Positions 16,010-58,900 of a stretch of DNA of 64,000 bases are shown piece after piece (within the stretch, counting starts at the first letter, position 1; every line of letters starts with the position of its first letter). This DNA comes from Tribonema minus (taxonomy: Eukaryota > Sar > Xanthophyceae > Tribonematales > Tribonemataceae). The position numbers and the translations under genes were made by a program. The stretch lies in NCBI GenBank assembly GCA_017506865.1, contig JAFCMP010000323.1, forward strand, positions 868,001-932,000. The letters run 5' to 3'. The notes below the pieces were generated by a model. The model saw only the letters and a list, made by a program, of their open reading frames with translations. It did not search any database and was not told the DNA's origin.

Positions 16010-16417
16010 CACAGCAACTCATTGTCCGTACATACATAGGGTGGCAAAAAAGTCTACTTTGAAGTGTATTTCTGAGTTTAAGTGTCCCTTCTGTGGCAGA
16101 CTGTATGCTCGAAATTGAGCAGACTCACCGCATACCCCACAAATACACTCTTCGCGCAGCATACTATCATGTTGAGGTTTGCTCAAGACGTATTCCTGGT
16201 TGCCAAATACGCCCCAAATACGCCGTATTTGTATGGTCAAATACGTTTTCGTGCAACCCTGTCCGTACGCGAAGGCACGCGACCCTATAGTTTGGCCCAA
16301 AGTCGTAAGGGCACATGCGCAAGCAACTACCACCGCTTTCAGGGTTGTTGCCCACGGCTCAGCAAGCATTACGCCATTCGCACACAGCAGCAACATGCAG
16401 GTATGCACAGAAGCAAA

Positions 16418-16800
16418 TGATACAGCAAAGCAGCCTGGAGTCTATGTTCTTGAGCAATAGAGCTGCTGAGCTGCTAGTGACATCAAAGTGCAACCAACTT
16501 GCAGGGCAAACATCAGTGGGGCAAGCAAAGACACACCTGTGTAGACATGGCTGAAGAAGGAGAGTGAGCCCAATGGATATGGCTCAGCTCCAGAGGTCTT
16601 GCTGTCTCCCAGCCAGGATGGTCTCTTGTTGCTTGCCTTGTAGGTGCCTTGAGCACTTGTTCTTGAAGCAAAAAAGAGCCTTCCTCCTAGTTGCTGGCAC
16701 AGGGCTTGAAGTTGAAGTACCGGTCCAGAGAACGGTCTCCCCCTTCCAGAGCTCCTGGCATTTCATGCTACTTGTAGCATAAAACAGAGAACTTGTATCA
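16418..16800 (-). repeat. 3' LTR of the retrotransposon
   Basis: 383 bp, identical to 27255-27637 except at 16723. Ends TGATAC...GTATCA form a 6-bp inverted repeat containing the standard TG...CA. A perfect hairpin ATGCTAC-TT-GTAGCAT lies at 16765-16780. Confidence 0.97.
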
Positions 16801-16812
16801 TCCCTCTTCTTT
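16801..16812 (-). other. polypurine tract
   Basis: On the minus strand AAAGAAGAGGGA directly abuts the 3' LTR. This is the expected position and composition of the primer for plus-strand DNA synthesis. Confidence 0.9.
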
Positions 16813-17053
16813 GAAAGGGCCGCCGTCCGCGGTGCCCACTAGACTGGTGCGCGGAAGTCGACGTTTTATGATACTTGATATTCAGCAATCCGCCTGCTCT
16901 GTCGCATCATAGCCAGGTTCTTGTCTTGTCTAGGTCCAGGGTGCGTCACCGTTCACCGTTCCTTCACGCCAAGCGCGTGAGCTCAACACGGCTTCAGGGT
17001 CAACACCGATGCTTCACCGCTCCTTCGCACCACGCGTGCGAGTTCAACGCGAT

Positions 17054-18406
17054 TCAACATTTGCGCAGGCGTTTCTGGGGTCTAGTATCCCCGGTCTCGT
17101 GACTTGCAGCTGGCAAATCAATTTGTATGTCGGCCTTGAGCGGCTCCTCGGCGAGCTCGCGTGCCAGCATGAGGTTCCAAGATGAAGGTTCAGCTTGAGC
17201 GTCATCACGGTAATATTCGGCTCTGAGCTTCAAACGCTTCTCTAGAGGCTTTTGTCCTCGCGTGTTGGGGAACTCCGCATCAAAAGTGAATTCTCCACGA
17301 TCGCGCTTGACGGATACAAGCCTAAGCAAGACGCCGCGGCTCCATCCGGAAGGGAACCGGTAGCGGAGAACTTGGCCAACGTAGAGTGGTCCAAAGTCAG
17401 TTGGCAAGCATGGACTCACAGTCACTCTTACATTAGCAGGCAGGTCAGCCGTAAGGCTGGAGTCAAAGGTAGGTTCTGGCTCGTTGCGCTGACGCGCTAA
17501 CCTACGCAGTCTGTCGCGCACGCCTTCGGCCATGAGCTTAGCAGCCCGTACCTGAGAAGACGTTAAGTCCTCCCACGTGCCATCAGAGTAGCGTACACGC
17601 CAGCGGGACAGCGCGAAGTCACGTACCTGGCCCCACAAGTAGTCAGTCGAGTTCGGCACATCATTGACTTGCCGGACCACTTGCGTGCCGCAAGGGTATC
17701 GCAGCAATGCAGCATCTTTGGACAGCGTGCAATCTTCGCGAGGAAGGTGACGTTCAGCGTATGGGGGAACGTTACCTTGGTGCTTGAGCTCATACAAAGC
17801 ATGAAAAGTGTCCAGCACCCATGGTGGTATGAACACCAGTTCTACAAGCTCTTTCTCGCGCACCCACTCTGAAGTAGTGCCGTCGCGCGCCAGCCACTTG
17901 TACGACCAGCCGCCGTCCTCATCAGCTCTGCGGTCTAGTATCTGGCACAATCGCTGGTCAGGGTCCAGCTGGTGCAGTTGCGCAGAGTCCAGGAGGGCAT
18001 GTACTCCCTCAATGTCAAGTCGCACAGGTCTGGGGTGATATGGCTTCATGTTTTCAACATGCGCGGTGGTCTCGCGTATGCGCGTGCCCATGAGTTGGCA
18101 TTGAAAAGAAAGCCCTGAATCACCATACGGAGCCACTAGCTTCCAGGGGCCAGTGAAGTGCTCCTCAATGGCACTTGCGCGGCCGCGTGAAGGTGGTTTC
18201 TTGATCCACACATAGTCACCGACCTCCAAGTGCACAGTGCGTTGGATTTGGTCATTGCGAGCTTGGATGCGTTCAGCACGTTGCTGCAGCGCCTCGCCGA
18301 CCGCCTCCTCAGCAAGCTTGAGATTTTCTTGCAGACGCTTTACCTCAGCATGTAGGTCTTGCGGGCTTGTAACCTCAGAGGTCAAAGCGTCAAGAGGGAA
18401 GCGTGC
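17054..18406 (-). CDS. integrase C-terminal part with chromodomain-like and Tudor-like segments
   Basis: This frame directly continues the upstream pol frame after the TAA at 18407-18409 and ends with TGA at 17054. It starts with a helical segment, then an integrase C-terminal beta module (EVGDYVWIKKP, then the EEHFTGPWKL block), followed about 90 residues later by a chromodomain-like block (ILDRRADEDGGWSYKWL ... EWVREKEL). Further on is a segment with GTQVVRQV, WGQVRDF and RWRVRYSDGTWEDLT, which resembles Tudor-like chromatin readers. In chromoviruses such tails direct integration to marked chromatin; that role is inferred here. An ATG-less start after the stop means this part is probably not translated from this copy without readthrough. 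Confidence 0.8.
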   Translation of the reverse strand, partial: ARFPLDALTSEVTSPQDLHAEVKRLQENLKLAEEAVGEALQQRAERIQARNDQIQRTVHLEVGDYVWIKKPPSRGRASAIEEHFTGPWKLVAPYGDSGLSFQCQLMGTRIRETTAHVENMKPYHPRPVRLDIEGVHALLDSAQLHQLDPDQRLCQILDRRADEDGGWSYKWLARDGTTSEWVREKELVELVFIPPWVLDTFHALYELKHQGNVPPYAERHLPREDCTLSKDAALLRYPCGTQVVRQVNDVPNSTDYLWGQVRDFALSRWRVRYSDGTWEDLTSSQVRAAKLMAEGVRDRLRRLARQRNEPEPTFDSSLTADLPANVRVTVSPCLPTDFGPLYVGQVLRYRFPSGWSRGVLLRLVSVKRDRGEFTFDAEFPNTRGQKPLEKRLKLRAEYYRDDAQAEPSSWNLMLARELAEEPLKADIQIDLPAASHETGDTRPQKRLRKC

Positions 18407-20578
18407 TTAGCGACCATAAACACAGAAGAATGGGGTCAGACCCGTCTCCTCCCTAGGCGTGTTCCTGAGCGCAAATTGCACGGCATCAAGGTATACATGC
18501 CAGCGTGCCTGGTAGCGAGAACAGAGTCTAGCAAGCGCTCGCTTGACGCGCCCATTCATGTTCTCAACGACGCCGTTAGACTGGGGGTGATATGCGCTGG
18601 TTTCAATCTTGTGCACTTTAAAGAAGGTGCAGAGCGTGGTTATCAGCGCACTCATGAATTCTGCGGCTCTGTCAGACATCAGCTCTTCCACAAGCGCGCC
18701 GCACTCAAAGAGCACTCTTGCCAGTAGGGGTGCGGCCTCAGCTGCTGATCGTGTCTTTACGGGGAAAAGCCAACAGTAGCCTGACCTAGCTTCAGTGATG
18801 ATGAGCAAGTATCGATGCCCTTCTGAGGAAAGGACGCCGACTTCGGTGTAGTCCACATGCAAGCGTTGCCACATGTGTGTAGATGGCATCAGTGCTTGCT
18901 TGTACCTGGCAGTGGACTGCGGTTTGGTTTGTTGACAAGGGACGCATGAGCGTACGTAGTCTCGGACGTCAGCGCCTAACCCTCTCCAATACATGCGTTC
19001 CAGCACCTTGGCGTGCGTGGCAGCAGTCGAGGGGTGTTGAGCACTGCCATCATCATGGCAAAGACGGAGCACAAGTGGCTTCAAAGCGTCGGGGACCACC
19101 CACTGAGTAATTAAGGTGCCCTTCTTTGACCGACTTGCCATGAAGTGCACGAGTAAACCGTCAGGTTCAACTGTGAAAAACTCTTGGTTCTGGCTGACAA
19201 ATTTGGCAAGGCTAGGGTCAGGGGTCTGGCCTTGTGTTTCCAGATAGTGCTTCACAGATGAACAGAAATGGTCACTTTCCTGCCAACGCACAAAGTTTTT
19301 GCGTTCCAGCATAGCAGGTGAAGACTCTAGGCGTGAGTCAGACTCTCCAGTCCGAGTTGACGTATTGTCATCTGAAGTGTCTGCTTCAGCGTCTTTAGCT
19401 TCAAGGGCAAGGTCAGTGGTTTCGCTAGTCTCGGTTGGAGCAGTTGCATCTTTAAGCGGCGAGAGCATCGCAGCGCAGCTGTCCCAAATGTGCTCAGAAT
19501 ACGAGCCCAGTTTCAGATTGCGAAGCATGGAAACGAGGGGAGTGGTTTCTGGTTCTGGTTCACCTCCCTCTTCTTTGAAAAGCGCGGTGTCCACGCACGC
19601 GCTCTCGTGCATGGTATCACTGAGGTCATGTACCTCCTGAGGTGTCAATGTACCCATGCAGTTGCTCAGTTTTGTAGATATTTGTGCAAGTTTGTTAAAT
19701 TTAAAAGCCGTGGCTCCTGGGCATGCCGTATAAGCACCTATACGGCCTAGAAATGCTGGTGAGTCTTGCAGTTGTTCATCATCAAAACGTACCCCAGACG
19801 GAGGTGCAGGTCCAGCATCGGTGCAGTCGGGCCACTGCTCGTCAGCGTGCTCGTACTGCCTAGGTCCGATGATCTCCGTCATCGGAGGCATGCGTGAAGG
19901 GCAGTCTGCATTGCCATTGTCTTTGCCAGGCCTGTGTACGACCATGATGTCGTATTCCTGGAGACGCATGGCCCAATGTAGCAGCTTGCTATTATGATTG
20001 TTCAAGGTCAAGAGCCAGCGAAGCGCAGACGCGTCGGTTACGACGGTTACAGGTCTGCCCCAAATGTAACCGCGGAAGTTGTTCAAAGCTAGCACCACAG
20101 CCAGACACTCTAGTGCAGTAGCACCAAGTTTTGCGTCCTGCACTGAGTTAATCTTGCTGAAAAATGCCACAACTACCTCTCTGGCAGGTTTGCCGTCAAC
20201 TGTGTTGACACGGCGCGTGCTGGCCCAGGGGAAGTTCTTGTGCCGTTCACGTAATTTGTCTAGTGGCACGAATTGAGATAGAACACCAGCAACGGCTAGC
20301 TTGCTTGCGTCTGTATGTACTATAAAAGGTAGGTCAAAGTCTGGGTGCATGATCACAGGAGCATTTGACATGGCGTGCTTGAGTTTGGCCAGCGCCTCTT
20401 GGCGGCGTTTGGTCCACGACATGTCAGCGCCATCACGCGTACACTCGACTAGGGGAGCTGCAATATGCGCGAACCGATGTATGTAGCGCCTATAGTAATT
20501 GAAGCACCCCATGAGGACTTGCATTAGCCGTTTATCTACCTTGCCGTCCTTGCCTACGGGTGGCATCATGTCGACCAT
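18407..20578 (-). CDS. pol: RT thumb/connection, RNase H and integrase core
   Basis: Continuation of reverse transcriptase in another frame. Order: RT thumb (CFNYYRRYIHRF), RNase H with the first catalytic aspartate in FIVHTDASK (near 20305), a spacer of low similarity, then the integrase HHCC zinc module (H and H in the HDDGSAQH block, C-x2-C in SCVPC, about 18920-19065) and the integrase core. The three acidic residues are visible: D in HVDYTEV, D in MSDRAAEF and E in VVENMNG, with exactly 35 residues between the last two (D35E). The frame ends in TAA inside the conserved stretch after the integrase core. It begins 13 nt inside the end of the preceding frame, offset by -1. Confidence 0.9.
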   Translation of the reverse strand: MVDMMPPVGKDGKVDKRLMQVLMGCFNYYRRYIHRFAHIAAPLVECTRDGADMSWTKRRQEALAKLKHAMSNAPVIMHPDFDLPFIVHTDASKLAVAGVLSQFVPLDKLRERHKNFPWASTRRVNTVDGKPAREVVVAFFSKINSVQDAKLGATALECLAVVLALNNFRGYIWGRPVTVVTDASALRWLLTLNNHNSKLLHWAMRLQEYDIMVVHRPGKDNGNADCPSRMPPMTEIIGPRQYEHADEQWPDCTDAGPAPPSGVRFDDEQLQDSPAFLGRIGAYTACPGATAFKFNKLAQISTKLSNCMGTLTPQEVHDLSDTMHESACVDTALFKEEGGEPEPETTPLVSMLRNLKLGSYSEHIWDSCAAMLSPLKDATAPTETSETTDLALEAKDAEADTSDDNTSTRTGESDSRLESSPAMLERKNFVRWQESDHFCSSVKHYLETQGQTPDPSLAKFVSQNQEFFTVEPDGLLVHFMASRSKKGTLITQWVVPDALKPLVLRLCHDDGSAQHPSTAATHAKVLERMYWRGLGADVRDYVRSCVPCQQTKPQSTARYKQALMPSTHMWQRLHVDYTEVGVLSSEGHRYLLIITEARSGYCWLFPVKTRSAAEAAPLLARVLFECGALVEELMSDRAAEFMSALITTLCTFFKVHKIETSAYHPQSNGVVENMNGRVKRALARLCSRYQARWHVYLDAVQFALRNTPREETGLTPFFCVYGR

Positions 20579-23500
20579 GGCTTTACTTTGTCCTCACATG
20601 GCTTGATTCCATACTTGCCCACCTTGTGGCCTAGGTATGTAACTTCTTCGGCAAAGAGTTGGCACTTGTGTCTAGACACACTCATGCCGTACTCTTCCAC
20701 GCGTCGAAGTACATCGTCCAAGTGAGCTATATGGTCTTCTAGATTCTTGCTGTGTACGAGCACATCATCAACGTACACGCATGCATGCGTTTGCCTGGCT
20801 GAGCCTAGGAGCTCATGCATGCATCTGGTGAATATACTTGGCAGGCACACCAACCCAAACGGCGCGACCTTGTACTCCCAGAGTGAGCCATCAGGTGCCC
20901 GGAATGCCGTCTTGCAGGTTGATTCTCTAGTCATAGGTATTTGCCTGTAACCAGAAGCAAAGTCTAGTGCCGAGAATATGCGTGAGCCCGAGCATTTCTG
21001 AACCAAGTCGTCCATATTGCCAAGCCCATACTCATCACGGCGTGTAACTCTGTTGAGCGGCCTATAGTCAACGCAGAAACGGACCTTGTCCTTCTGAGTC
21101 ACTAGCACTGGATTGCTAGCCCAAGGACCATTGGTAGGTCTGATCTGTCCGCGTTTGCGCTCATTTTCAATGGCTTCAAATATGATTTTAGCTTCGCGTT
21201 CAGCCCACCTGCGTGCCCTGTCGGCGATGGGCGCTGCGTCGCCTGTGTCAATGTCCACGTCAAAACGGTCCGTCACCTTGGGGTTCTTGGGGTCCTTGGC
21301 AAAGGCGCCTCGTCGCCGGCGAAGCACCTCCATGGCGCGGTCATAATAGGTGACGCCGTGTCGATCGCGTTGCTTGAGGATGTTGAAGATCTCCCCGTTC
21401 TTGTCACACAGCACTTCACGTAGCTCCTCGTCTGTGCAAGTTCCCAGCGAGGCATTGTGCTCCTCTGCCACCTTGTGTCTGAATGCAGCTCGTTCTGCCT
21501 CAGCGCGCATGGCAGGGTCTGGTCTTGGCGAGTCGTGTTCTGGCACACACGAGGGGTCTGGCTGCTGCACAGGTCTTGATCTGTTTACAGCAGGTGTATC
21601 TGGTGCGTTTTGCCCAAGGTGTCTCAACGCAATTCTTGTCAAGTTAGCCACAAGCTCCTCTTTGCCAATGTCTAGGCTGCAGATCATGTCAGGGGCCTCA
21701 ATGACGCCTAGCACTGCACCTCTAGGCACAAACACTGGCGCAGTGGAAGTGTTCTCGACTAACATCCCTAGTGGCTTGTTAGGTGCTACAAAGCCCACCG
21801 TATCCATGAGAACGGCACCTCTGGTGGCCAGCCTGTTTGCCATCACTGACGCCTCTGGCGCGTCAGGGGTGAGTAGCACTTCAACAGGGCCTGTGCACTG
21901 TACTGGTGGATGTGACACTACTTCAATGGTTTTAGCGGTGTCAGCTTTAAGCACCTGGTCACACGTTGTACGCAGCAAATAAGTGCGACTAGGCAAAGTG
22001 GGCCTCTGAGAAGACTTGGCTCTTGTAACACCCACCTTGATCGTGTTGGCAGCTGGGGGGTCTAGAGTCCCCAACTTAGCTTGTTCATGCATGGCAACGG
22101 CAGGTCCAGCGGATCCAGCGGGGTGGAATCGCATGCCATGTTCATAGGTGATGGACGAGCCAAATTTGCCAAAGAAATGTGACCCCAAGATTGCCTCATA
22201 AGGCAGGTCCACCACGTAAAAAGCGTGTATGAATATGGTGTCTTTGAAGCGCACCTGGGCGTGCACTACACCTGAAATTGGCACAGACTTCTTGGCGTCT
22301 GCAAGTTCAACCGTGGTAAAATCACCCTCGGAGAGCGGGCAAATTGAACCCGGCGGCAACTGGTGTGCGCGTTCTGTGTTAATGAATTCGGCCTCGGCGC
22401 CGTTATCCACTAGCGCGTCAAGTACCAGTTCTTGTATGCCGTTACCAACTTGTGTGCGTATTGGCATGTGCACAAAGCCATTTTTCTTAGGTCTGCCGAC
22501 TGCACGTGCCCTATGTAGAATCTTGGGAGGCTTGTCACGCGCTATGCGCCTGGGTTGAGCCTTGAAAACATCGGTAGCAATGCTACTAGCACTAGGCTGC
22601 TGAGCATCTGCATCGCTGTCAGTGTCGCTCATTTCTCGCATTGCAACAGCACGTGGCGTCTCGACATGCGGCGCATGAGAAGCATGAGGAGTCAAAGGCT
22701 CTTCCTCATCTTCACCGTACGTCCAAGGCGTCTGCGAAACCGGTGCATCACTTCCAGGCCCAAATGATGCAAGTATGGCTTGGCCTACATTGCGTGTAAA
22801 ACGCTGGAAGTTCCGCACGCAAGCACTAGCTAGGCGCAGTATTGCAGGCCGATCAGGACCGGAGTCTACCATCCATTCTGGCGGGGGAGAAGTGCGATCA
22901 TGCACTACAACCTCACCTGGTGAGACGCCAGTGGCATCACGAGGGCTTGGCCACTCCTCCGGCAAGGCGGCGACCGCGTGCAAGGCAAGCATGAGCGCTG
23001 ACACGCAATTGGGTTGCACTAAGTTTGCAGCCCAGCGCTTCATCTGAGTGATGGTCCCGGAAGGATGTGGCTCAAAGTAGCCCAGCAAGTTCATGACCTG
23101 ATCAACAGTCAAGACAAGGGCCTTACTAACCGGTCCCGCGTCTTTCTCACGTGGCTGATAAGACGAGGAGGGGCCCCGCCCAGGCTGGCGAGTAGCAGGG
23201 CTAGGGAGCGGCATGTCAGTAGACAGCACGCCTTGCGTCGTGGGTTGCCTCGGGTCCCAATAAAACGTGTCATGGGAGCAACCAAGATGTTCACGGACCG
23301 TACGTGGCTTGCTGGTGCGAAAGCGCTCATTGAGAATTGCATTCAAGCGTGCAAATCGTTCAGGCAACCGAGCAGCATTTGCAGCTGACACAGTATAGAC
23401 GCGCTCGCGTGAAGATGCACCATTAACGTCGGTCCCACGAAACTGCACCTCATAGGTGGAGTACCCCTTTGTACCCACGACGCGGCAGAAGTCACGCCAT

Positions 23501-26500
23501 GAGCTTGATAGGAGCATCCTAGGCACGTTTTCGTTGATGACTAGAGCTGGCAGGCAATCGGCAGCAATCTCTGCAACATGTACAAGCGTGCGTGCTGCAT
23601 CGCCTTCAATCCCCATTCTCGCAGGGGAAAACTCAACACAAGAAGCTGTATTCCAAATCGCGTCTGGCTTGAGGTGCTTGAGCCTCTCGCGAACTTGGGG
23701 GCTAGATACATCTGCACATATGACCTCGGTGTCAGGGAAGAGTTTGCTGTACTCCTCACATGTACGCTTGCAGTTGTCTACCGCTACGACCACCTGCACG
23801 TCAACGTCTGCTGCACGTGCGAACTCCTGCAACCCCCTATGTACACCCCCTATTCCACAGCACAACTCTGCCACCCGCAGCCGCCTTCTGTCCGAGCGCC
23901 CCGCGTCGGCATCAGACGCCTCCTTAGTCTGCGGATATGACACGGGCGAAGTGGTGGAAGTAGGTGCAACGCATCTGGGGTCAGAAACGTCGGTCTTACC
24001 TGGCTGCGGAGTAGCAACATCATGAGCGACATCTTGCGCTGCAAGCGGCGCGCAACTGGTCGTGTCACTGGTGCCCAAAGCAGTCAAAGGTGCGCTAGTG
24101 TCAGGCGCGCATACTGCTGGAGCGTCACTGGCATCTGGAGCAGTCAAAGGTGCGCTGGTGTCAAGTGCGCGTACTGCTAGCTCACTATGCGCATACAAGA
24201 ACGTGGCTAACATACAAGTGCCAACGGTCTTGTCGAGCATGCGCGTAGTGACTTGTGTGCCGGCCTCAGTCGCCGCTGGTTGCACATCTAGCGCTTCTAG
24301 CACATCTTGCGTGGGGCTAGTGCAATGACCGCTGTGCCCGAGTTGCACTGGCGCGTCAACATCCATGAGTGCACTAGGCAAGGTGTGGAAAGCGGTGAGC
24401 GAACACTCACTTGTCTTGGCGCGCTTGGCGCGCAGCTCGTCGCGGCGCTTCTCCAGCTTGTCGTGGGGCCTCTTGGCGGCCTTCAGGCGCTCGATGCGGT
24501 GCTCGTACCATTCCGGGCACTCTTGGCAGTGCTCCCGGAGCTTGTTCTCTCCACCGAAGTGCTTGTGGCACCCGAAGCACTCGTCACTGCTGGAAGCCTT
24601 GGCCTTGTCGCTCTTGGGCTTGGCCGGCTGCTTGGCAGGCTTAGCAGGAGCCATTGCCGCAGCCCTAGGGTGGCTCTCGTCCGAAGTGTCCATGGCGTCG
24701 CTGCCGCGCATGGCGCTAGTCTTGGCCTTGGCGCCCTCGTTGACGATAGCGAGCGCCATGCCCTGCCGCTCAGCTGCCTCTTTGAGGTTGCGCTTGAAGT
24801 CTGCGAGCTGTTGGGGACGCATGGCTTTGTAAAAGTCCTCGGTGCGGTCGACCATGGCGTTCCAGTCTTCAAGTATAAGGCGCTCCTTGCGGAAGTCTTG
24901 GCGAAGGGGCTGCGTCATGCGGTTGGAGAAGTGCGTCTTGAGCATGGTGACGTCGACGACCGCGCCCTCGGGTCCGGCGCGCTCCGCAGCATGGAGTAGC
25001 TCGTCGGCAAACTGGCGTGGCGTCCAGTCTGGCTGCCAGACGAGGTCAGTGATCTCCATCATCGCCTCGGCGCGGTGAGCTGCGTTGTCGAAGCGCTTGG
25101 CGATCGCCGCCCAAAGCTCCTCGTAGTTCATGGAACCGCAGCCCTGAACGCGCTCCAGTCCCGTAACAGGGTCCTTGTGCGCGATGATGAGCTGGTCTTG
25201 CTGATCCGCGGTCAGGCAACGGCGCAGAGCAAAGTCCCACTTGTCGTAGGGGACACTGTTGTAGTGGGCCGCCTGCTCGAAATGGCGGCGAGTCGTCTCG
25301 GTTGCGCCGGGGCGGAAGGGGATAGGGAGCGCCGTAGGGTTGAAGAACTTCTGCCAGCTCACGTCTTCATGGTGGCTAGAGCTCGCAGTGGCGGCAGCTG
25401 CAGGCGCGGCGAGTGGCGCTGCGCCCTCGAACGGCGCGCGCGCGGGGTTGATGACGTTGGCGAAAAGGCCGCTACTGCTAGTAGGCGCGGGAGCATAGCT
25501 GTGGCTAGCGGTGGGCGCGAGTAGGTCCGCCCCGGGATAGCCCACGGGCATTGTGCGAAGCTGCTCCTCTTGGGTGCGCTGGGCAGCTTCGGTGAAGAGC
25601 GTCGGCGCGGTGAAGTTGACAAAGTGCGCCAGCGCCGCCGGTCCGGCGCGGCGCGCCGCATCAAAGTAATCTCGAATGCGGCGGTACCGCTCGACGCGGT
25701 CCGCGTGACGCCGCAGGTCCGATGCGCGCAGGGCGCGGCGGTGACGCTCCGCCTCGATGCGCGAGCGCCAGTCGGCGTCAGCTTCGGCCTCGATGGCTAG
25801 CTGCAGGGGCGTGGCGTGGGCAGTAGGCAGAGGACGCCGCTCGCGCTCCTCGTACAGCTCCTTGATCTTGGCGTCCGCGGCTAGAGTGTCGCGCTTGGCT
25901 TTGTCACGAGCAGCGTCATCTTGGGTAATGCGCTGGCCAAGCTCGACCTCGATGCCGCGGGCGACGCATTCAACGTCGTCAGAAGAGGTCGGGGCGACGG
26001 CGGCGGCGCGTGGAGTTGCAGCGGTGCCGGCGCTGAAGAGGATGGCTGGGTCGAGGCTAGCAGTGGTGCTAGTAGCTGGACGCACCGAAGCGCTCACGCG
26101 CTCTGCAGCACGGCGCAGAGCCTCGTCGCTAATAGCGGGGAGAGCAGCGCGAAGTCCTCGAACAATGTCGTCCATCTGCTCTCGACCATCACCGGAAGCC
26201 GGGGCAGGTGCGGCGGATGTCGCGACCGGCAGGTTTCCGGAGGACGCGGGGGGACCTTGAGCTTGAGCGGCAGTGACAGGCGGAGTGGCAGTCGGTGCAG
26301 TCCCAGCGCTCGCGGGGATCGAGGCGACCGCAGCTAACATGCCGCCCTGATCGGCAGGAGGCGCCGACACAGGGTGCACAGGGGGGGGCTGTGCCTGCGG
26401 ATCCGCACCGCCACCGCTACTCTCACCGCCGGTTCCCGCGCCACCCGTTTCCCCAACGGAGGCTAAGGCCGTCGCAGGCTGTTCGGCGTTGCCAGTGTGG

Positions 26501-26523
26501 ATAGCACTTCCTCCCTGAGACAC
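20566..26523 (-). CDS. Gag - zinc finger - C5-cytosine methyltransferase-like - protease - RT polyprotein
   Basis: About 1985 codons, open up to 26580 without an ATG; the first in-frame ATG is at 26340 (residue 62 of this frame), the best start. Residues about 1-640: Ala/Pro/Ser-rich leader, coiled helix and a Gag-like capsid region. About 645-665: Cys/His finger (CFGCHKHF ... EHCQEC). About 878-1195: C5-methyltransferase-like domain with motif I AELCCGIGG, motif IV region ASCVEFSPARMG, motif VI NENV, motif VIII SSRERVY and a motif X-like QPNCVSALML. About 1365: aspartic protease with DNGA where DTGA or DSGA is usual. About 1780-1985: reverse transcriptase with VDYRPLNRV and YVDD. The frame ends by TGA at a -1 shift inside RT. 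The methyltransferase part is intact as a reading frame; the Pro before the catalytic Cys is replaced by Ser, so activity is uncertain. Confidence 0.93.
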   Translation of the reverse strand: MSQGGSAIHTGNAEQPATALASVGETGGAGTGGESSGGGADPQAQPPPVHPVSAPPADQGGMLAAVASIPASAGTAPTATPPVTAAQAQGPPASSGNLPVATSAAPAPASGDGREQMDDIVRGLRAALPAISDEALRRAAERVSASVRPATSTTASLDPAILFSAGTAATPRAAAVAPTSSDDVECVARGIEVELGQRITQDDAARDKAKRDTLAADAKIKELYEERERRPLPTAHATPLQLAIEAEADADWRSRIEAERHRRALRASDLRRHADRVERYRRIRDYFDAARRAGPAALAHFVNFTAPTLFTEAAQRTQEEQLRTMPVGYPGADLLAPTASHSYAPAPTSSSGLFANVINPARAPFEGAAPLAAPAAAATASSSHHEDVSWQKFFNPTALPIPFRPGATETTRRHFEQAAHYNSVPYDKWDFALRRCLTADQQDQLIIAHKDPVTGLERVQGCGSMNYEELWAAIAKRFDNAAHRAEAMMEITDLVWQPDWTPRQFADELLHAAERAGPEGAVVDVTMLKTHFSNRMTQPLRQDFRKERLILEDWNAMVDRTEDFYKAMRPQQLADFKRNLKEAAERQGMALAIVNEGAKAKTSAMRGSDAMDTSDESHPRAAAMAPAKPAKQPAKPKSDKAKASSSDECFGCHKHFGGENKLREHCQECPEWYEHRIERLKAAKRPHDKLEKRRDELRAKRAKTSECSLTAFHTLPSALMDVDAPVQLGHSGHCTSPTQDVLEALDVQPAATEAGTQVTTRMLDKTVGTCMLATFLYAHSELAVRALDTSAPLTAPDASDAPAVCAPDTSAPLTALGTSDTTSCAPLAAQDVAHDVATPQPGKTDVSDPRCVAPTSTTSPVSYPQTKEASDADAGRSDRRRLRVAELCCGIGGVHRGLQEFARAADVDVQVVVAVDNCKRTCEEYSKLFPDTEVICADVSSPQVRERLKHLKPDAIWNTASCVEFSPARMGIEGDAARTLVHVAEIAADCLPALVINENVPRMLLSSSWRDFCRVVGTKGYSTYEVQFRGTDVNGASSRERVYTVSAANAARLPERFARLNAILNERFRTSKPRTVREHLGCSHDTFYWDPRQPTTQGVLSTDMPLPSPATRQPGRGPSSSYQPREKDAGPVSKALVLTVDQVMNLLGYFEPHPSGTITQMKRWAANLVQPNCVSALMLALHAVAALPEEWPSPRDATGVSPGEVVVHDRTSPPPEWMVDSGPDRPAILRLASACVRNFQRFTRNVGQAILASFGPGSDAPVSQTPWTYGEDEEEPLTPHASHAPHVETPRAVAMREMSDTDSDADAQQPSASSIATDVFKAQPRRIARDKPPKILHRARAVGRPKKNGFVHMPIRTQVGNGIQELVLDALVDNGAEAEFINTERAHQLPPGSICPLSEGDFTTVELADAKKSVPISGVVHAQVRFKDTIFIHAFYVVDLPYEAILGSHFFGKFGSSITYEHGMRFHPAGSAGPAVAMHEQAKLGTLDPPAANTIKVGVTRAKSSQRPTLPSRTYLLRTTCDQVLKADTAKTIEVVSHPPVQCTGPVEVLLTPDAPEASVMANRLATRGAVLMDTVGFVAPNKPLGMLVENTSTAPVFVPRGAVLGVIEAPDMICSLDIGKEELVANLTRIALRHLGQNAPDTPAVNRSRPVQQPDPSCVPEHDSPRPDPAMRAEAERAAFRHKVAEEHNASLGTCTDEELREVLCDKNGEIFNILKQRDRHGVTYYDRAMEVLRRRRGAFAKDPKNPKVTDRFDVDIDTGDAAPIADRARRWAEREAKIIFEAIENERKRGQIRPTNGPWASNPVLVTQKDKVRFCVDYRPLNRVTRRDEYGLGNMDDLVQKCSGSRIFSALDFASGYRQIPMTRESTCKTAFRAPDGSLWEYKVAPFGLVCLPSIFTRCMHELLGSARQTHACVYVDDVLVHSKNLEDHIAHLDDVLRRVEEYGMSVSRHKCQLFAEEVTYLGHKVGKYGIKPCEDKVKPWST

Positions 26524-27236
26524 ACGACAAAGTTGGCAACTCGTCGCCAGTACGCACTTCCGTGTAGAGCGGGCAAACGCTCAAAATGTGCGCGTCGACG
26601 GCGTGCCAGAGCGCTCAAGATTTTTCAAAGTGCTCAAAGGTTATGCAATCTGCTCAGAGATTATGCAGAAGCCGATAATTCCCTTTTCCACTTGAAAAAG
26701 CGTGTCAGGGTCGGCCTAGGCGAGTCTAGCCAGCGTGTGGACAACTCCACATTGTCAACTCAAAATGCGTCGGGGTGATCAGTCCCGTTGCATACATGAG
26801 TTTTCACGCTGCACGCAACATTGTGCCGAGGTGCACGAATCAGTTAGCGGCGCTCACACTAACTGACGGAAAACGCTGTTGCATGGTTGCGTGTCCATGC
26901 TCACGGATTCCTCAAAGTAGCTGGAGCACCTAGTCTGACAGTACAGCCAGTTGTGCCTAGCAGCCGTGTGCTGGAAGGGAAACACCACGAGCTTCGTTGA
27001 TCGCATGCTGTCGTCTGCAGGACTAAACAGCACGGACTTGCCATAGCATGCGAGCAACTGATAGACGCTGGGCAGTCTAAGTACATAGCAGCGTCCCTAT
27101 GTGTCTGTTGCACCGCCAGCGCGACCCCGTCGCGGACGCAGTACTTCAGAACACCTTCGTGGCCTAAGTGCACGGCATTAAACTGTGTCGGAGTAATCGA
27201 CAGAGTCTTCAAAGTCTAGCACCGATGGTGTCGCCG
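26524..27236 (-). other. 5' leader of the retrotransposon
   Basis: Lies between the PBS and the gag frame. No conserved protein. Contains repeated GCTCAAaG/TATGCA(G/A) words near 26620-26670 that could belong to a packaging or dimerisation region (speculative). Confidence 0.5.
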
Positions 27237-27254
27237 GCAAGTGGAGCTGAGCCA
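27237..27254 (-). other. primer binding site
   Basis: On the minus strand TGGCTCAGCTCCAC... follows the 5' LTR with no gap. The leading TGG is complementary to the CCA end of a tRNA. The priming tRNA could not be identified, so the true length is unknown. Confidence 0.8.
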
Positions 27255-27637
27255 TGATACAGCAAAGCAGCCTGGAGTCTATGTTCTTGAGCAATAGAGC
27301 TGCTGAGCTGCTAGTGACATCAAAGTGCAACCAACTTGCAGGGCAAACATCAGTGGGGCAAGCAAAGACACACCTGTGTAGACATGGCTGAAGAAGGAGA
27401 GTGAGCCCAATGGATATGGCTCAGCTCCAGAGGTCTTGCTGTCTCCCAGCCAGGATGGTCTCTTGTTGCTTGCCTTGTAGGTGCCTTGAGCACTTGTTCT
27501 TGAAGCAAAAAAGAGCCTTCCTCCTAGTTGCTGGCACAGGGCTTGAAGTTGAAGTACCGATCCAGAGAACGGTCTCCCCCTTCCAGAGCTCCTGGCATTT
27601 CATGCTACTTGTAGCATAAAACAGAGAACTTGTATCA
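27255..27637 (-). repeat. 5' LTR of the retrotransposon
   Basis: 383 bp, with A at 27560 where the other LTR has G. Expected to hold the element's promoter on the minus strand. No TATA box was assigned. Confidence 0.97.
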
Positions 27638-27745
27638 CAAACACTATTTTGTCAATGGTCATTGTTTAATCACCATTGACATTACTTGGCCCTCTTCACA
27701 TTGTCACACGTACGTACAGCGCTAGCACATGGGCCACGCGCATTG

Positions 27746-31074: not shown

Positions 31075-32915
31075 ATGATGCCCGCGGCTGGGCCACTCGG
31101 TAAGAGGCGAACTGCATTGCCAACTTCAACCCAACTTCACTAGCGAGCATGTGCTTGCCTGCGACTCACCTTTTGAAGCCTTATGGAAGGTAGCAGGCAC
31201 GCACAACATCTGCGCGACTGCTCCTGCATTGCTCCTCCGCTTTCGCCAGCAAATGCTGCCCAGTCATTAGTCACCATGGTGTAGCATGGCCGCAACTGAG
31301 GTCCTTGCGTGCACCATGCATTAATGTAATGTGAGAATGTGTTGCATGACATAAGCATGCTGCTGAGACGGAGATCTTGGGCGCTTCTCATGGCGATGCC
31401 GCTGCCGCCAACGACTCGCTTGCTCGCACGATGAAGTCACGATGAAGTCAAGTACCTGATGTGGGCCCCTGCTGTGACATGTCCATGCAGGTGCTGACGC
31501 GTCTGATTCGGACGGGCAGCTGGTGGCGGCCTCGCCAGTCAGCTGCTCAGGGTGCTGCGGCCTTCGCAATGCCGTGCTTGCCAGCGACGCCGACAGCATC
31601 AAATCGCTGCTGGGCACCCAACTGACATGCGTCGACAGCAAAGGCTACACACCGCTGATGCAAGCCTGTCGCGCCGGAGTGCGTCAACGCACTGCTTCAG
31701 CAGCCTGCCTTCATACACAAGCAGGTCACGGCCATCACCAGCTACGGCACCACTGCGCTCATGCTGGCCGCCATAAACGGCCACGTCGACTGCGTCAACG
31801 CTCTACGGCAGCACGACACCGCCGTCCTTCTGCATGCACGTGACAGCAATGGCGGCATAGCGCTAATGTACGCTGCTGCCAAAGGCCACGTCCGCTGCGT
31901 GGCTGCGCTGCTTCAGCATGACGTGTCCGTCCAGCTGAACGCCCGCAACAGCGCAGGCTGCACAGCGCTGATGCACGCTGCACACCACGGTCGTGTGGCC
32001 TGCGTCCATGCCCTGCTTCAGCATGACGTGGCCTTCCAGCTGAACGCCCGTGACAACGACGGCGGCACAGCGCTGATGCATGCTGCACGCAAAGACCATG
32101 TGGACTGCGTCAATGCCCTGCTTCGACATGACGCGTCCGCCCAGCTCAACGCCCGTGATAGCGCAGGCGGCACAGCGCTGATGCTTGCTGCTGCCGGTGG
32201 CCATGCCGACTGCATCAATACCCTGCTCCAGCAAGATGCGTCCGCCCAGCTCAACGCTCGTGATAGCGCGGGCGTCACAGCGCTGATGGTCGCTGCACTC
32301 TACGGAATTGCCGACTGCATCGAGGGGCTCCTTCAGCGAGATGCGTCCATCCAGCTCGCAGCAGTTCCCTCCCACGGCTTCACAGCGCTGATGGTCGCCA
32401 CAATCAACAGTCATGTCGACTGCATCAGGGCGCTGCTGCGCCGAGACGTCCCCGTGCAGCTGAAAGCCCACGACGGCACTGGCTGCACGCCGCTAATGTT
32501 TGCTGCTCTCTACGGCAAGGTTGACTGCATCAGAGCGCTGCTTCGGCGAGACGCGTCCGACCAGCTGAACGCCCGGGATGGCAAAGGCTGCACAGCGATG
32601 ATGTACGCCGCGATCGGTGGCGATGCTGGCAGCATCGAGGCGCTACTTCAGCAAGACGCCTCCATACAGCTGGCGGCCTCAAGTCAAAACGGACTAACGC
32701 CTCTTCACGTTGCGGCAAAGAGGGGTCACAGGGATGCCGTTGGGGCATTTCTGACTGCAGGCGCTGATCCTTATGCAGTCACGGACAAGGCGGAACAAGT
32801 GTTTGTCGGCGACATCATAGCGGACGTGTGTCAGGAGGCCCGCATGCAGCATGCGCTGCAAAGTGCGATAGTGGACTTTGCCGGGCACGCGCTTGCGCGC
32901 AGGGCAGTGCCCTGA
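31075..32915 (+). pseudogene. ankyrin-repeat protein with a frameshifting deletion
   Basis: A mini first exon (31075-31099, ATG ATG start, donor GTAAGA) joins in phase to exon 31491-32915 (acceptor CATGCAG, TGA stop). The protein is almost entirely ankyrin repeats of about 33-34 residues, about eleven in all, with repeated cores such as GGTALMLAAAGGHADCI and LLQ(H/Q)D. Ankyrin repeats mediate protein contacts. At 31673-31680 the frame shifts within a repeat: the usual G-H-V-D-C segment is replaced by GG-AG-TGC, as if about 8 nt were lost. From 31681 the correct frame continues uninterrupted to the stop. Either the gene is a recent pseudogene, the read has an error, or translation starts at the ATG at 31761. 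The near-identical repeats suggest internal duplication. Confidence 0.7.
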
Positions 32916-48064: not shown

Positions 48065-51000
48065 ATGCGGAGGCGAAGTGCAGCCACCAAGGGGGAGGTG
48101 ACGCCGCCTCCAGTGATACGCATCAAGCCACCGCCGGAGACAACGGCACAGAGGCTGCGAAAGAATGCTGGCTACTACGCTCTGGCCTTCATCATATCCT
48201 CCGTCGTCATCAAAGGGATCTTTGACAAGAATCATCACACGGAGGTACCGTGCGAAGAGCACCACTACGCGTGTTCTCAATCTCGGGATTAACGGAGAAG
48301 CCTACTTATTGCTTTCAATACTGCCACATTGATTGCATCTGCTCTGCTGTACACGCTCTGTAGATCCAGAGAGTTGGTGCGACGACGAGTTGAATGTGAC
48401 TGTGGCAGTCGGTTGATCTTTCAAGGTCATTGTATAGCTGGGTATATTTCAAGTTGTGCATGTGTGCTCCGGGTCTTGTTGACATCCCTGACTCATCTGC
48501 GCTCACGCGCGATTCACTTCCCGCACTCTTCCGCGCAGCTGCCGATCCTGCACACCATCGCCAAGCACAACATGAACTGGGTGGACAGCACCACGGCGGC
48601 GCCCATCAGCGTTCCTAGGTATGTTGGTATCAACGCACAGCCACTGTTTTGTCGCTGTTGCTCGTTCCAAGTACATCAAGATGTAGAGGCTCCTGGCCTC
48701 AGCTCGCCAGTTTGCAGGCAACTCCAATAGTAGCGTTTCTTCAAATTGAAGTGCGCCAACAAACACCCATTTTCCTGCGATCGTTGTGAGGCGCGCGTAC
48801 ACGACAGTATCTGTCATTGCACTTCATCAGTTCTGGTTTACTGGATTACACGTTGTGTCAGGTCATTGCATCACGAGAATTGGCCTACTTCAAGTTGTTG
48901 AAGTAGCATGAGATGATTGGCAAAGCCCCCTGCAGCACACAAAATGCAAAGCAGCGGTGTACCCGAGGCACATGTAATGAACTTCGGCACTTCCAGTCTG
49001 CTGCAAACAGCGGGGGAGAACCTTCAGACACAAAAAACTGTGTTTCATTTAATTCTACAATGCGCCACTCGCAGGAACTTGCTTTATATGAGCGCCAGTG
49101 CTCATGTTGCCCTTGTGGAGGCACTGTCAGGTTGTTTGCTGGCAAACGAGCGCAGCCACGTCCCCCAGCACACGACACCGCTACTGCCACCAACACCATC
49201 ACTCCTGCGCTCACCTTCCAACAGAGCTCATGTGCTGAACCTGCGGACCCACCTTTCACTCCGACATTGCCCACTGCTTCATGAAGTGATATCTAGTCTA
49301 GACGCTGTGCAGTACGTCTTTAATTGAAACGATGCGTACCTATATTGCAATGAATTGCAGTGTGCTGGCGAAGCTCATGCTGGCGAAGGAGCCAAAGGAC
49401 TGGCCGGAGGGGCTGACGCTGGACGAGGAGACGCTGGCAGCGGGCACTAATGCCAAGGGGTGGAGACATACGGTGCCGCTGTCAGGTGATTACAGTATTT
49501 GGTATAGTTCCCCGACATTGGTACCATGATTTTATCATAAGTCTTACAAATGAAGACAATAATGGATGAGGAGACGCTGGCAGCGGGCACTAATGCCAAG
49601 GGGTGGAGACATGCGGTGCCGCTGTCAGGTGATTACGGTATTTGGTATAGTTCCCCGACATTGGTACCATGATTTTATCATAAGTCTTACAAATGAAGAC
49701 AGTAATGGATGAGGAGACGCTGGCAGTGGGCACTAATGCTAAGGGGTTGAGACATACGGTGCCGCTGTCAGGTGATTACAGTAATTGGTTTCCCGATATA
49801 TTCATAATGATCTTGTCATTTATGAATCTTACGAATGAAGACAATGATGGATGAGGCAACGCTGGCAGCGGACGCTGGCAGCTGGCACAGATGCCAAGGG
49901 GTGGAGACATACGGTGCCGCTGTCAGGTGAGAATTTGGGAGAATTCATCGTGTTTTGCCCTGGCTTGGGGCTGTTTTCAAATCCTCATCATCTGTAAAAC
50001 AAAATATAGCATTACTGTAGTCATTCTGACAAAGGTTGTGACAATATTATAATTGTATGAATAACGACAGTGATGAATGAGGAGACGCTGGCAGCAGGCA
50101 CATATGCCAAGGGGTGGAGACGTACAGTGCCGCTGTCAGGTGATTACAGTAATTGGCACTTTGATGTATAGTTTTCCTACGTATTACGGAGATGTGAACA
50201 ACGACAATGATGACTGGCAGTGGACATGGATGTCAAGGGGTGGAGACATACGATGCCACTGTCAGGTGGCGACAATGGCTGGTGCACTTTGACAGAGTTT
50301 TCATGTAGTCAGATTCTTCGGGCGCCAAGAGACCCAGTGATTGTCACTGTCAGGAATCTTGTAACGGTAACATTTCAGTTCGGCAATCTACAATCAACAT
50401 AAGTAATAGTACGTGCAGTAGTAATACCAATCATAATGGTAATGGACGAGGCAACGCTGGCGGCGAGCGCGGATGCCCAAGGGTGGAGACAGGCGGTACT
50501 GCTGTCAGGTGATGACAGTGATTGATAATTTCCTTGCAATACAATTAGGGTTATATTTGGTCAGGGATAGCGTTAGGGTTTGGGCTTGACACAAACACAG
50601 TACCACTATGGCAAGTGGCATTCGCAGGGGGTGGGAAACAGACGGTGCCCTCTGTGAGTGACTTTTTTTTTTAGGAACGCTTGGTTCAACACATGCTGTT
50701 CTTTTGTGGAAATCATGGCAACTCCCTAAACAGGGGGGGGGAGGGGGGGGCAGTTGCACGAACGCCGAAGCGCGGAGAAATTGCGGGGCCCTGTCAGGCA
50801 ACAATTGCTGGGCTGGAAAAGTTCACTTGAGGGATGCTTGGCGCAATGTGCAGCTTCTCTCAGTGCAAAAAGTTCACTTGAGGGATGCTTGGCGCAATGT
50901 GCAGCTTCTCTCAGTGGAAAAGTTCACTTGAGGGATGCTTGGCGCAATGTGCAGCTTCTCTCAGTGCACCGCAACTCGCAATGAGAGTGTGCGGTCTCGC

Positions 51001-55900: not shown

Positions 55901-58900
55901 TGATGCTGAGTGTGGGTAAAAGACGCCGTTGCTGATGTTGAGCGCTGTTGAGGTCGCTGAGTGCTGTCCCTGATGCGGAGCACTGCAGCTGATGCCGAGC
56001 GCTGATACTGAGCGCTGCTACTGCTGCTGCTGCTCACCTGATGCGAAAGGCTGGTCCTGATGCTGAAACGCTGCCGGCAATGCTGATCGACGTTGCTTTG
56101 TTGCTCCGCAGATGCTGGGCACTGTCACCGATGTAAAGCGCTAATCCACAGCGCTGCTGCTGATGCCGGGCGCTGTTGGTGATGCTGAGCACTGTCACTG
56201 ATGCTGATGTTGAGCGCTGCTGCTGATGGAGTGCCGTTGCTGATGCCGAGCGTTGCTGCTGATGCTGAACACATTGACTGGGTGCTTTCACTGATGCGAT
56301 GCGCTGTTGCTGCTGTTGCTGAGCGCTGTTACTGATGTTGAGCGCTGCTACTGCTGTTATTGCTACAGAAATGGGCGCTCGCACGTGGATCAGAATGTCA
56401 GATCCCGGAGGTCAGCATTGATCCAGCAAACCCAGAGGCTGGACTCAGGTAAGGGCAGCATCGCTCATCTGCCGGGCTCTAGCCCTGACCCTTAACCCTC
56501 ACTCAAGGCATGGGCAGCATTGCTCTTCTGTGTAAACCTACTTAGCCAACACTCATCGCTTACCTGCCTGGCGCGAGCCCTAACCCTTACTCAAGGCATG
56601 AGCAGCGTGACTCTTCTGCGTAAATATAAGCCCTCACTAAGGGCAGCATCGCTCACCTGCCTGGCTCCAGCCCTGACCCTAGCTGAAGGCATGGGCAGCA
56701 TTGCTCATCTGTATAGACCTAGCCCTCTCTCAAGGTAAGGGCAGCATCACTCACCTGCCTGGCTCTAGCCCTATCCCTACTTAAAGCATGGGCAGCATTG
56801 CCGATTTGTGTAAATGTAACCCATCACTCAAGGTAAGGCAGCATCGCTCATTTGCCTGGCTCTTAGCTGTAATTGTTTAAGTAGCATTGGGGGGGGGAAG
56901 GGGAGAACCCCAAGGGGCATCCAGGGCACCCTCCTTGTCCCTGTTGCACCGTTACTTGAGGCATGGGCAGCGTTGCTCATCTGTGTATTTTTAGCCCTCA
57001 CTCTTAAAAGGGCAGCATCGCTCACCTGTCCGGCTCCAGCTCCAACTGTTGCCGCAGGGTTGGGGGGGGGGGTGGGGGACCCTGGGGCATTCAGCGCACC
57101 CCTCTTGTCTCTGTTGCAGCCTTAATCAAGGCATAGGCAGCATTGCTCATCTGTGTACACCTAGCCCACCTGAAGGTATGGGCAGCATCGGTCATCTGCA
57201 CTGTTTCCGGCGACAAGCGCCAGATTGCGTTGTCCCGTTCCTGGCAGTAAGCGCCGGGCGGTACCGAGTCATCTCAGGTATTTATTTGCAGCGGAAGCGG
57301 ATGCCACAGGCACTGTCAGGATTAGGGTTGGGATTAGAATGAGGGTAAGGACTAGCACTATTGACGACCGTTGCACGCACGCAATGGAAGAGTATTTCAA
57401 CGCATTTGTCAAGCGCGCTGGTACTGGCGCGGAACCGCACCCGGTGACACGCCTCGTTGTGTAAAGGGGGCTACCGACACTATAGGACGTCGGTGAACTG
57501 CTGCTGTGCTAGGGTGCGCGCGATCATCACTTGCTGTTGTTGAAGTGCGCGTTACAGACGCTGACCACTGTGAACGCGCCCGCTGCGTGCGCGCGATTGC
57601 TGCAACACCAGGGAGGTGCGCCGGCTGGTCGGCGAGGGAGAGCCCGTGATGGTGCGCAACGCAATGGCGTGGCTCAGCGCCGCCAGGTAAGGCAGCTGCG
57701 TAAGTTCAACTTGAAGTCTTTTGAAGTTGAAGTTGACATCTACTTTTCTCGTGCGGACTAAAGCTGTGTTAACAGTGGAGGTAAACCGCGATGTACGCAC
57801 CGGCGAGGGCGAGCCCGTGATGGTGCGCAACGCCATGGCGTGGCTCAGTGCCGCCAGGTGAGCAGCGGCATAAGTTCAACTTGAAGTTTCCTTCTCGCAC
57901 GGACACAGCTGCACTAGCAGTAGAGGTACATTACAACGTACAAAGAGCCCGTGATGGTGCGCAACGCCATGGCGTGGCTCAGCGCTGCCAGGTGAGGCAG
58001 CTGTGCAAGTTCACATTGATGTCTGTAAAAGTTCAACTTCAAGTCTGTACTAGTTCAACTCTAATTTTCTCGTCGGACTACAGCTGCACAAGCAGGAGAA
58101 GTGAACCTCGATGTATGCGTCAGCGAGGGTGAGCCCGTGGTGGTGCGCAACGCCATGGCTTGGCTCAGCGCTGTCAGGTGATACAACTTCAATTTGAAAT
58201 CTGTACGAGTCAACTTGACGTCTACTTCTCTCGTACGGACCACAGCTGCACTAGCAGTAGAGGTGAACCCTGATGAACGCGTCGGCGAGGGCAGGCCCGT
58301 AGCGCAACGCCATGGCGTGGCTTAGCAACGCAGGTGAGCGCTGCATAAGTTCAAGTTGAAGTACACTTTTCTGGTGCGAACCACAGGTGCAGTAGCAGTA
58401 GAGGTAAACCCTGGTGTACGGCGAGCCCCGTGATGGTGCGCAATGCCATGGCTTGGCTCAGTGCCGCCAGATGAACGTGCAGAGGTCCAACTTGAAGTAT
58501 GTTGAAGTTCAATTTGTCTGTGTAAGCTCTAGTTTTCTGGTGCGGGCCAGCTACACTAGCATTAGAGCAGCAGAAATAGGCCCAGATCTACGGCCAACCC
58601 CGTGATGGTGCGCAACGCCATGGCGTGGCTCAGCGCCAGGAACGGTTTAGAAGTTCAACTTGAAGTACGAGTTCAACACCTCATGACTTCCGTCCTTCGC
58701 CAGACCTGTGTACGGACCGCTGATGGTGCGCGGCGCCATAGTATGGCTCAAGGGGGAGTACAGCATGTTGAAGTTTCCTGACGTTGCATCTGCCTTGACC
58801 TGACTCTCAAAGGGCACACAGCGCAACGGTCATCTGCGCCGGTGAGGCTTCCTTGCATGGCTACGTTCGCATCCGCACGCCACCCCCGCATTGTCTGCAC

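Follow-up and report, generated by a model that had tools for sequence, protein, structure and literature searches.

A Ty3/Gypsy-type LTR retrotransposon of Tribonema minus with a C5-cytosine methyltransferase domain in its Gag-Pol frame

The 64,000-nucleotide stretch of Tribonema minus DNA analysed here (contig JAFCMP010000323.1, positions 868,001 to 932,000), hereafter the window, contains a long terminal repeat (LTR) retrotransposon with a C5-cytosine DNA methyltransferase (DNMT) domain inside its Gag-Pol frame. The element occupies 11,220 bp of the minus strand (16418..27637), on which all of its features lie, and is of the Ty3/Gypsy type, as judged from the LTR structure and the order of protease (PR), reverse transcriptase (RT), RNase H and integrase. 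Its LTRs are direct, 383 bp each, with TG...CA ends (5' LTR TGATACA...TGTATCA, 27255..27637; 3' LTR, 16418..16800). Comparison of the flanks reveals a 4-bp target site duplication, CAAA, on the left (16414..16417) and on the right (27638..27641). A primer binding site abuts the 5' LTR (27235..27254; sense TGGCTCAGCTCCACTTGC.., starting with TGG) and a polypurine tract abuts the 3' LTR (16801..16820). These hallmarks, together with the profile match to PF00145 described below, confirm the proposal of the first-pass annotation that an LTR retrotransposon carries a C5-methyltransferase domain inside its Gag-Pol frame.

The domain (22894..23877) is encoded in the first open reading frame (ORF1) of the element. 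PF00145 matches residues 883-1073 of ORF1 (23305-23877) with E=4.5e-14 and a score of 53 bits, the cut-off being 22; the far end of the domain is approximate and was set by a motif X-like stretch at residue 1170. TIGR00675 (dcm) also matches at 2.8e-11, yet below its own cut-off. The motifs quoted in the first-pass annotation are present in the expected order, namely, the S-adenosylmethionine (SAM)-binding motif I AELCCGIGG (residue 885, 23845..23871), motif IV ASCVEFS with the catalytic cysteine (residue 960, 23626..23646), in which serine replaces the usual proline before the cysteine, motif VI NENV (residue 997, 23524..23535) and motif VIII SSRERVY (residue 1037, 23395..23415). When 19 related domains of the genome are aligned (A1), the catalytic cysteine, the Glu-Asn-Val of motif VI, both arginines of motif VIII and the GxGG-type SAM motif are invariant in all 19 rows; L029, which reads ENL where others read ENV, was excluded from A1. 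The motifs are thus kept in sister copies of the element. The best sequence relatives of the window domain in the PDB are DNMT2 enzymes (E=1.4e-8), and a profile built from A1 retrieves 53 PDB sequences, with DNMT2, HaeIII, DNMT1 and HhaI at the top. DNMT3 chains exist in the PDB, and no chain of that name is among the 53 matches; judging from sequence, the retrotransposon domain does not look Dnmt3-type. In a fold model of the domain (mean pLDDT, the predicted local distance difference test score, 64.9), the first ~150 residues are mostly confident and consist of alternating strands and helices. When this model was used for a fold search, the best 50 PDB matches were all C5-methyltransferases, with DNMT2 on top at 4.5e-13. 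The sequence thus confirms the window domain as a C5-cytosine methyltransferase, with methyl transfer as its predicted activity.

ORF1 (20566..26523; 1985 residues) encodes, in order, Gag, a Cys/His knuckle, the DNMT, PR and RT; it was listed from a GTG start, its first ATG being residue 62. These borders were initially given for the whole element; they delimit a real frame but reach only from Gag to RT. The knuckle-like stretch (CFGC...HCQEC, 24517..24579) was recognized by eye and has no Pfam match above cut-off. PR is represented by a region with the triad LVDNGA (22174..22425), below the Pfam cut-off (E=0.19), and RT by a strong RVT_1 match (20620..21090; E=4e-32). ORF2 (18407..20578) contains RNase H (19952-20341), the integrase zinc finger (18917-19096) and the integrase core (18584-18868), the last again below the Pfam cut-off in the window copy (31.0 versus 32.6 bits) and above it in P0002 and P0003, two proteins from other records. 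ORF3 (17054..18385) encodes the integrase tail. The PR triad varies among the elements: it reads D-N-G in the window and in L040, D-P-G in L041 (L040 and L041 by eye) and D-C-G in L019 and P0001, and the usual D-T/S-G is kept in P0002, P0003 and L011. Two lesions break the window copy: the frame changes between RT and RNase H, and a stop follows the integrase core. Sister copies are open over 3177 residues, and Gag-Pol therefore seems to be a single frame in this family, designated family A. Two observations bear on its recent history. A single one of 383 bases differs between the LTRs, a sign of recent activity, and 24 of 128 genomic domain matches, the window's own included, are at least 97% identical to the window domain over at least 281 residues; six of the 24 sit in frames longer than 3100 residues. 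Outside the element, the window has local direct repeats of 74-92% identity at 31895-32663, 49420-49930 and 57628-58474.

The domain is widespread in the genome (158 Mb in 554 contigs). Only the best candidates were scored, so that the following counts are lower bounds: at least 123 places were found with PF00145 and at least 128 with the window's domain, giving at least 177 distinct places after both lists were merged and seven short fragment matches were dropped by hand. Gene surroundings were checked for part of the 177, and some places are partial or contain stops. Four are of another kind: L004 is a DNMT2-like exon, and L001-L003 are free-standing enzymes. L001 adjoins a deoxynucleotide monophosphate kinase gene and has four relatives on viral contigs at 30-32% identity, and L002 adjoins a ResIII helicase gene; L001-L003 are perhaps remains of endogenous large viruses. 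Starting from the RT of the window's clade, 108 of 150 listed places (from a search counting 152) are preceded on the same strand by a DNMT place at a distance of 0.5-7 kb. Among the 42 without a listed DNMT, five were inspected: three do carry the domain and two have none in ~3.5 kb upstream. Related domains are also found in proteins of other records (P0001-P0011 and P0016, several placed by eye only), so that the phenomenon may exceed one genome. P0001, however, is so near family B that the same species may be its source.

Families were named A to K from the fetched loci, and a DNMT phylogeny was built from 48 rows and 174 columns spanning motifs I to VIII. Near-copies (L003, L005, L013, L015, L021 and L030) were left out, as were L020, L032, L033, L035, L038, L040, L041, L044 and Dnmt3 sequences. 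One supported group unites families A, B, C, D, E, G and H with two proteins from other records (98/92), and family I is its neighbour (96/93). Families F and J make up a group of their own with full support (100/100), distinct from DNMT2, DNMT1, bacterial-type enzymes and L001/L002. A single origin of all retrotransposon DNMTs is neither shown nor rejected by the approximately unbiased test (p=0.40 with three groups, 0.25 without family I). The same three groups are seen in an RT tree of 16 rows covering families A, D and G with P0002/P0003, family I, and families F and J; no RT of families B, C, E or H is included. Several deeply diverged DNMT families are thus distributed across three RT lineages. 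Two domain orders exist as well. The DNMT precedes PR in A, D, P0001 (B-like) and P0002/P0003 (Gag-DNMT-PR-RT), and a D(T/S)GA protease motif precedes the DNMT in F (L011) and P0011 (PR-DNMT-RT), which suggests either two captures or one move. The F and J elements also have GC-rich (72-79%) repeats common to two of their parts (L005, L007, L011, L012, L013). No relative was found on viral contigs searched with alignments A2, A3 and A4, or in prokaryote genomes searched with the window's domain, at the sensitivity of these searches.

Selection on the domain was gauged from the ratio of nonsynonymous to synonymous substitution rates (dN/dS) in 20 pairs that share members; many dS values exceed 1, making the estimates rough. 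Fourteen pairs reach a dS of 0.4; in 13 of them dN/dS is 0.07-0.21, and in the remaining one, L034-L037, it is 0.42. In the better-diverged families, the DNMT is under purifying selection, and it is less constrained than RT in the one diverged pair in which both could be compared. For Symbiodinium, similar levels of constraint were reported for RT and DNMT domains (PMC5890265).

The LTRs are conspicuous in their base composition. Either LTR of the window element has 2 CpG against 23.8 expected (observed/expected 0.084), and none of 2601 overlapping LTR-size windows of the flanks is as CpG-low; the ratio is 1.02 in the adjoining 5' untranslated stretch and 0.93 in the internal region. A second family A copy has LTRs at 0.168 and family B at 0.126. 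Alignment of the A and B LTRs is poor, with 242 identical positions versus a shuffled mean of 222 and maximum of 236. The LTRs examined are generally CpG-poor, those of A and B being extreme; for families C, K and F, the stretches fetched yielded no LTR. Beside the family B LTR, positions 375-900 of L051 have almost no CpG (0.00 in the 250-base windows at 500 and 625), and this stretch is perhaps another LTR.

Our preferred explanation, which as a whole we give an even chance, is that the window element inserted recently and has since been broken, that it belongs to a Ty3/Gypsy-type family whose polyprotein has long included a C5-methyltransferase, and that the enzyme would methylate the element's own complementary DNA (cDNA). 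Since the domain lies in Gag-Pol, it would be packaged with RT in the particle and freed from the polyprotein by the protease. It would then methylate the newly made double-stranded cDNA, so that a new copy arrives already marked, and the CpG-poor LTRs would let the element bear the mark without silencing its own promoter. The choice of cDNA as substrate follows the analogy with the DNMTs of Symbiodinium DIRS elements, which methylate CG de novo in yeast (PMC5890265).

Several observations weigh against this explanation. Beyond its first half, the fold model has low confidence. Constraint on RT is stronger than on the DNMT (0.023 versus 0.097) in one diverged pair, RT dS being saturated in two further pairs. 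One of the six closer pairs lacks synonymous changes; the other five have dN/dS of 0.25-0.58, four of these from families G, I and J, so that some families may be decaying. We considered whether CpG-poor LTRs are peculiar to DNMT elements. This idea lost ground to five Copia controls, taken from 82 matches, whose LTRs lie at 0.30-0.67 with interiors near 0.9, and to family D, in which a 415-base repeat between tandem copies, taken as an LTR, has a ratio of 0.46. Because internal CpG is undepleted, there is also no sign of methylation-driven decay inside the element. In the yeast assay, LINE and Gypsy DNMTs gave no methylation, a result that its authors call inconclusive (PMC5890265). Finally, a DNA methylase would not usually have Ser-Cys in motif IV.

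This last feature leads to the main rival for family A, an RNA 5-methylcytosine (m5C) methyltransferase whose target would be the element's RNA or its tRNA primer, as tRNA is the target of DNMT2. Proline before the catalytic cysteine is typical of C5-methyltransferases; in family A, serine directly precedes the cysteine in 33 of 33 matches to a DNA pattern that is loose at that codon; copies differing elsewhere in the stretch are left out of this count. A reversed control pattern has no match, nor does a version of the pattern with proline anywhere. The serine codon varies by subfamily (TCT, TCG or TCA), as expected if selection keeps serine. Pmt1 of Schizosaccharomyces pombe has the same Pro-to-Ser change and was once thought inactive for it, yet is reported to be an active tRNA methylase (PMC5372726). 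Ser-Cys is thus not a mark of death, and RNA becomes a serious alternative substrate. The same substrate is suggested by DNMT2 being the top PDB sequence match for the window domain and for three family alignments, and the top fold match for the window domain; furthermore, the DNMT adjoins the Gag knuckle, where RNA would bind. By contrast, the tree groups none of these domains with DNMT2, whose rank as top match may be generic, and Pro-Cys is kept in the rows of families B, C, D, E, F, G, I and J. We rate an RNA methyltransferase in family A as unlikely, though it is the most serious rival of cDNA methylation.

A bolder version, which we hold to be improbable, reconciles both substrates. Family A would have turned a DNA methylase into an RNA m5C methyltransferase through the fixed Pro-to-Ser change in motif IV, modifying genomic RNA or the tRNA primer in the particle; sister families with PR, DNMT, RT and chromodomain would keep the DNA-writing activity, and the enzyme would have been gained at two places of the polyprotein. 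If true, one genome holds the enzyme in both RNA and DNA modes.

The first-pass annotation had named protection of the element, silencing of competitors and marking of integration sites as candidate roles of the enzyme. The integrase tails offer another possibility, in which the DNMT would mark chromatin around insertion sites and a Tudor-like or chromodomain tail would steer integration to the marked chromatin. A chromodomain-like tail had been attributed to the window element, an attribution we could not sustain: the tail has no chromodomain match, only one to PTM_DIR17_Tudor (17546-17644) below cut-off (18.1 versus 27.2 bits). PTM_DIR17_Tudor is matched weakly by all three tails compared, from family A and two relatives (best E=1.4e-4). 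The related suggestion that one element could both write and read chromatin marks is thus not supported as it stood for the window element. The domain combination itself does occur in family F, where the chromodomain exceeds the Pfam cut-off (28.9 versus 25.1 bits). In this family, L011 (654-9272) and L012 (1422-9998) encode PR, DNMT, RT, RNase H, integrase and chromodomain in one open frame, a methyl writer and a chromatin reader in a single polyprotein. Such readers, however, are known for recognizing marks on histones rather than methylcytosine. Tails of the Tudor or chromodomain type have been described for Gypsy elements of Ectocarpus (PMC12477816). With the window's own Tudor match under cut-off, we consider guided integration a doubtful account of the role of the DNMT.

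It is also conceivable, although we think it rather improbable, that the domain no longer has catalytic activity and instead binds nucleic acid as part of Gag. Ser-Cys in family A, Asn-Cys at motif IV of L037, ENL in L029 and the faster evolution of the DNMT relative to RT are in line with such a role, but the invariance of the cysteine, Glu-Asn-Val and both motif VIII arginines throughout A1 is hard to explain without catalysis. A chimeric assembly or chance match, for which nothing was found, has practically no chance of being correct, being refuted by the many copies on many contigs and by the presence of DNMT and RT within one protein in other records (P0001-P0003).

Retrotransposon-borne DNMTs are already known from a few algae. 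A Gypsy-like element with Dnmt3 in Klebsormidium and DIRS and LINE elements with DNMTs in Symbiodinium were described by de Mendoza et al. (2018, PMC5890265), and a 2025 survey of eukaryotic DNMTs mentions these cases along with orphan lineages (PMC12344493). In KnitGypsy-Dnmt3 of Klebsormidium nitens, too, a Gypsy-type polyprotein includes a C5-methyltransferase on which purifying selection acts, but this enzyme is Dnmt3-type and the repeats of the element have a DIRS-like layout (PMC5890265), unlike the non-Dnmt3 look, direct LTRs and target site duplication of the window element; the present genome, moreover, has several DNMT families in two domain orders. SymbioDIRS-Dnmt3 and SymbioLINE-Dnmt also comprise retrotransposon DNMTs in hundreds of copies, the latter's type being described as belonging to no named DNMT family (PMC5890265). 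By that description, on which our comparison of the DNMTs is based, SymbioDIRS (with a tyrosine recombinase) and SymbioLINE are not LTR/integrase elements. DNMT2 and Pmt1 are the closest solved relatives, and Pmt1 shares the serine before the catalytic cysteine (PMC5372726), but they are free-standing tRNA methylases and stand apart from the retrotransposon domains in the tree. The Ectocarpus Gypsy elements resemble those studied here in the chromatin-reader tail at the integrase end (PMC12477816), and orchid Ty3/Gypsy elements with an N6-methyladenosine (m6A) demethylase domain likewise gained a nucleic-acid-modifying enzyme, although in that case an RNA demethylase in land plants (PMC9289625). 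Our literature search, in which few subscription papers or preprints were covered, found neither an LTR/Gypsy element with a non-Dnmt3 C5-methyltransferase reported from chlorophyll a/c algae nor a reported retrotransposon frame that combines a DNMT with a chromodomain. Few examples are known, and for this kind and variety we found no report.

As for the host, its genome has numerous matches to light-harvesting genes, one of which has fucoxanthin chlorophyll a/c proteins as its best PDB matches, and a search for the RuBisCO small subunit found none. From this gene content, the host is probably an alga with a red-type plastid and chlorophyll a/c, such as a haptophyte or an ochrophyte. Searches of the host genome for SRA and DNMT1-RFD domains gave no match, and control genomes gave none either. 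Methylation is normally a weapon of the host against transposons. Here, the parasites own the methylating enzyme, which occurs in many families, in both domain orders and in all three RT lineages, and there are signs that they were recently active. Since sister families within one genome differ in the catalytic motif, in the position of the enzyme and in the reader domain, the question of why a retrotransposon should methylate becomes directly testable.

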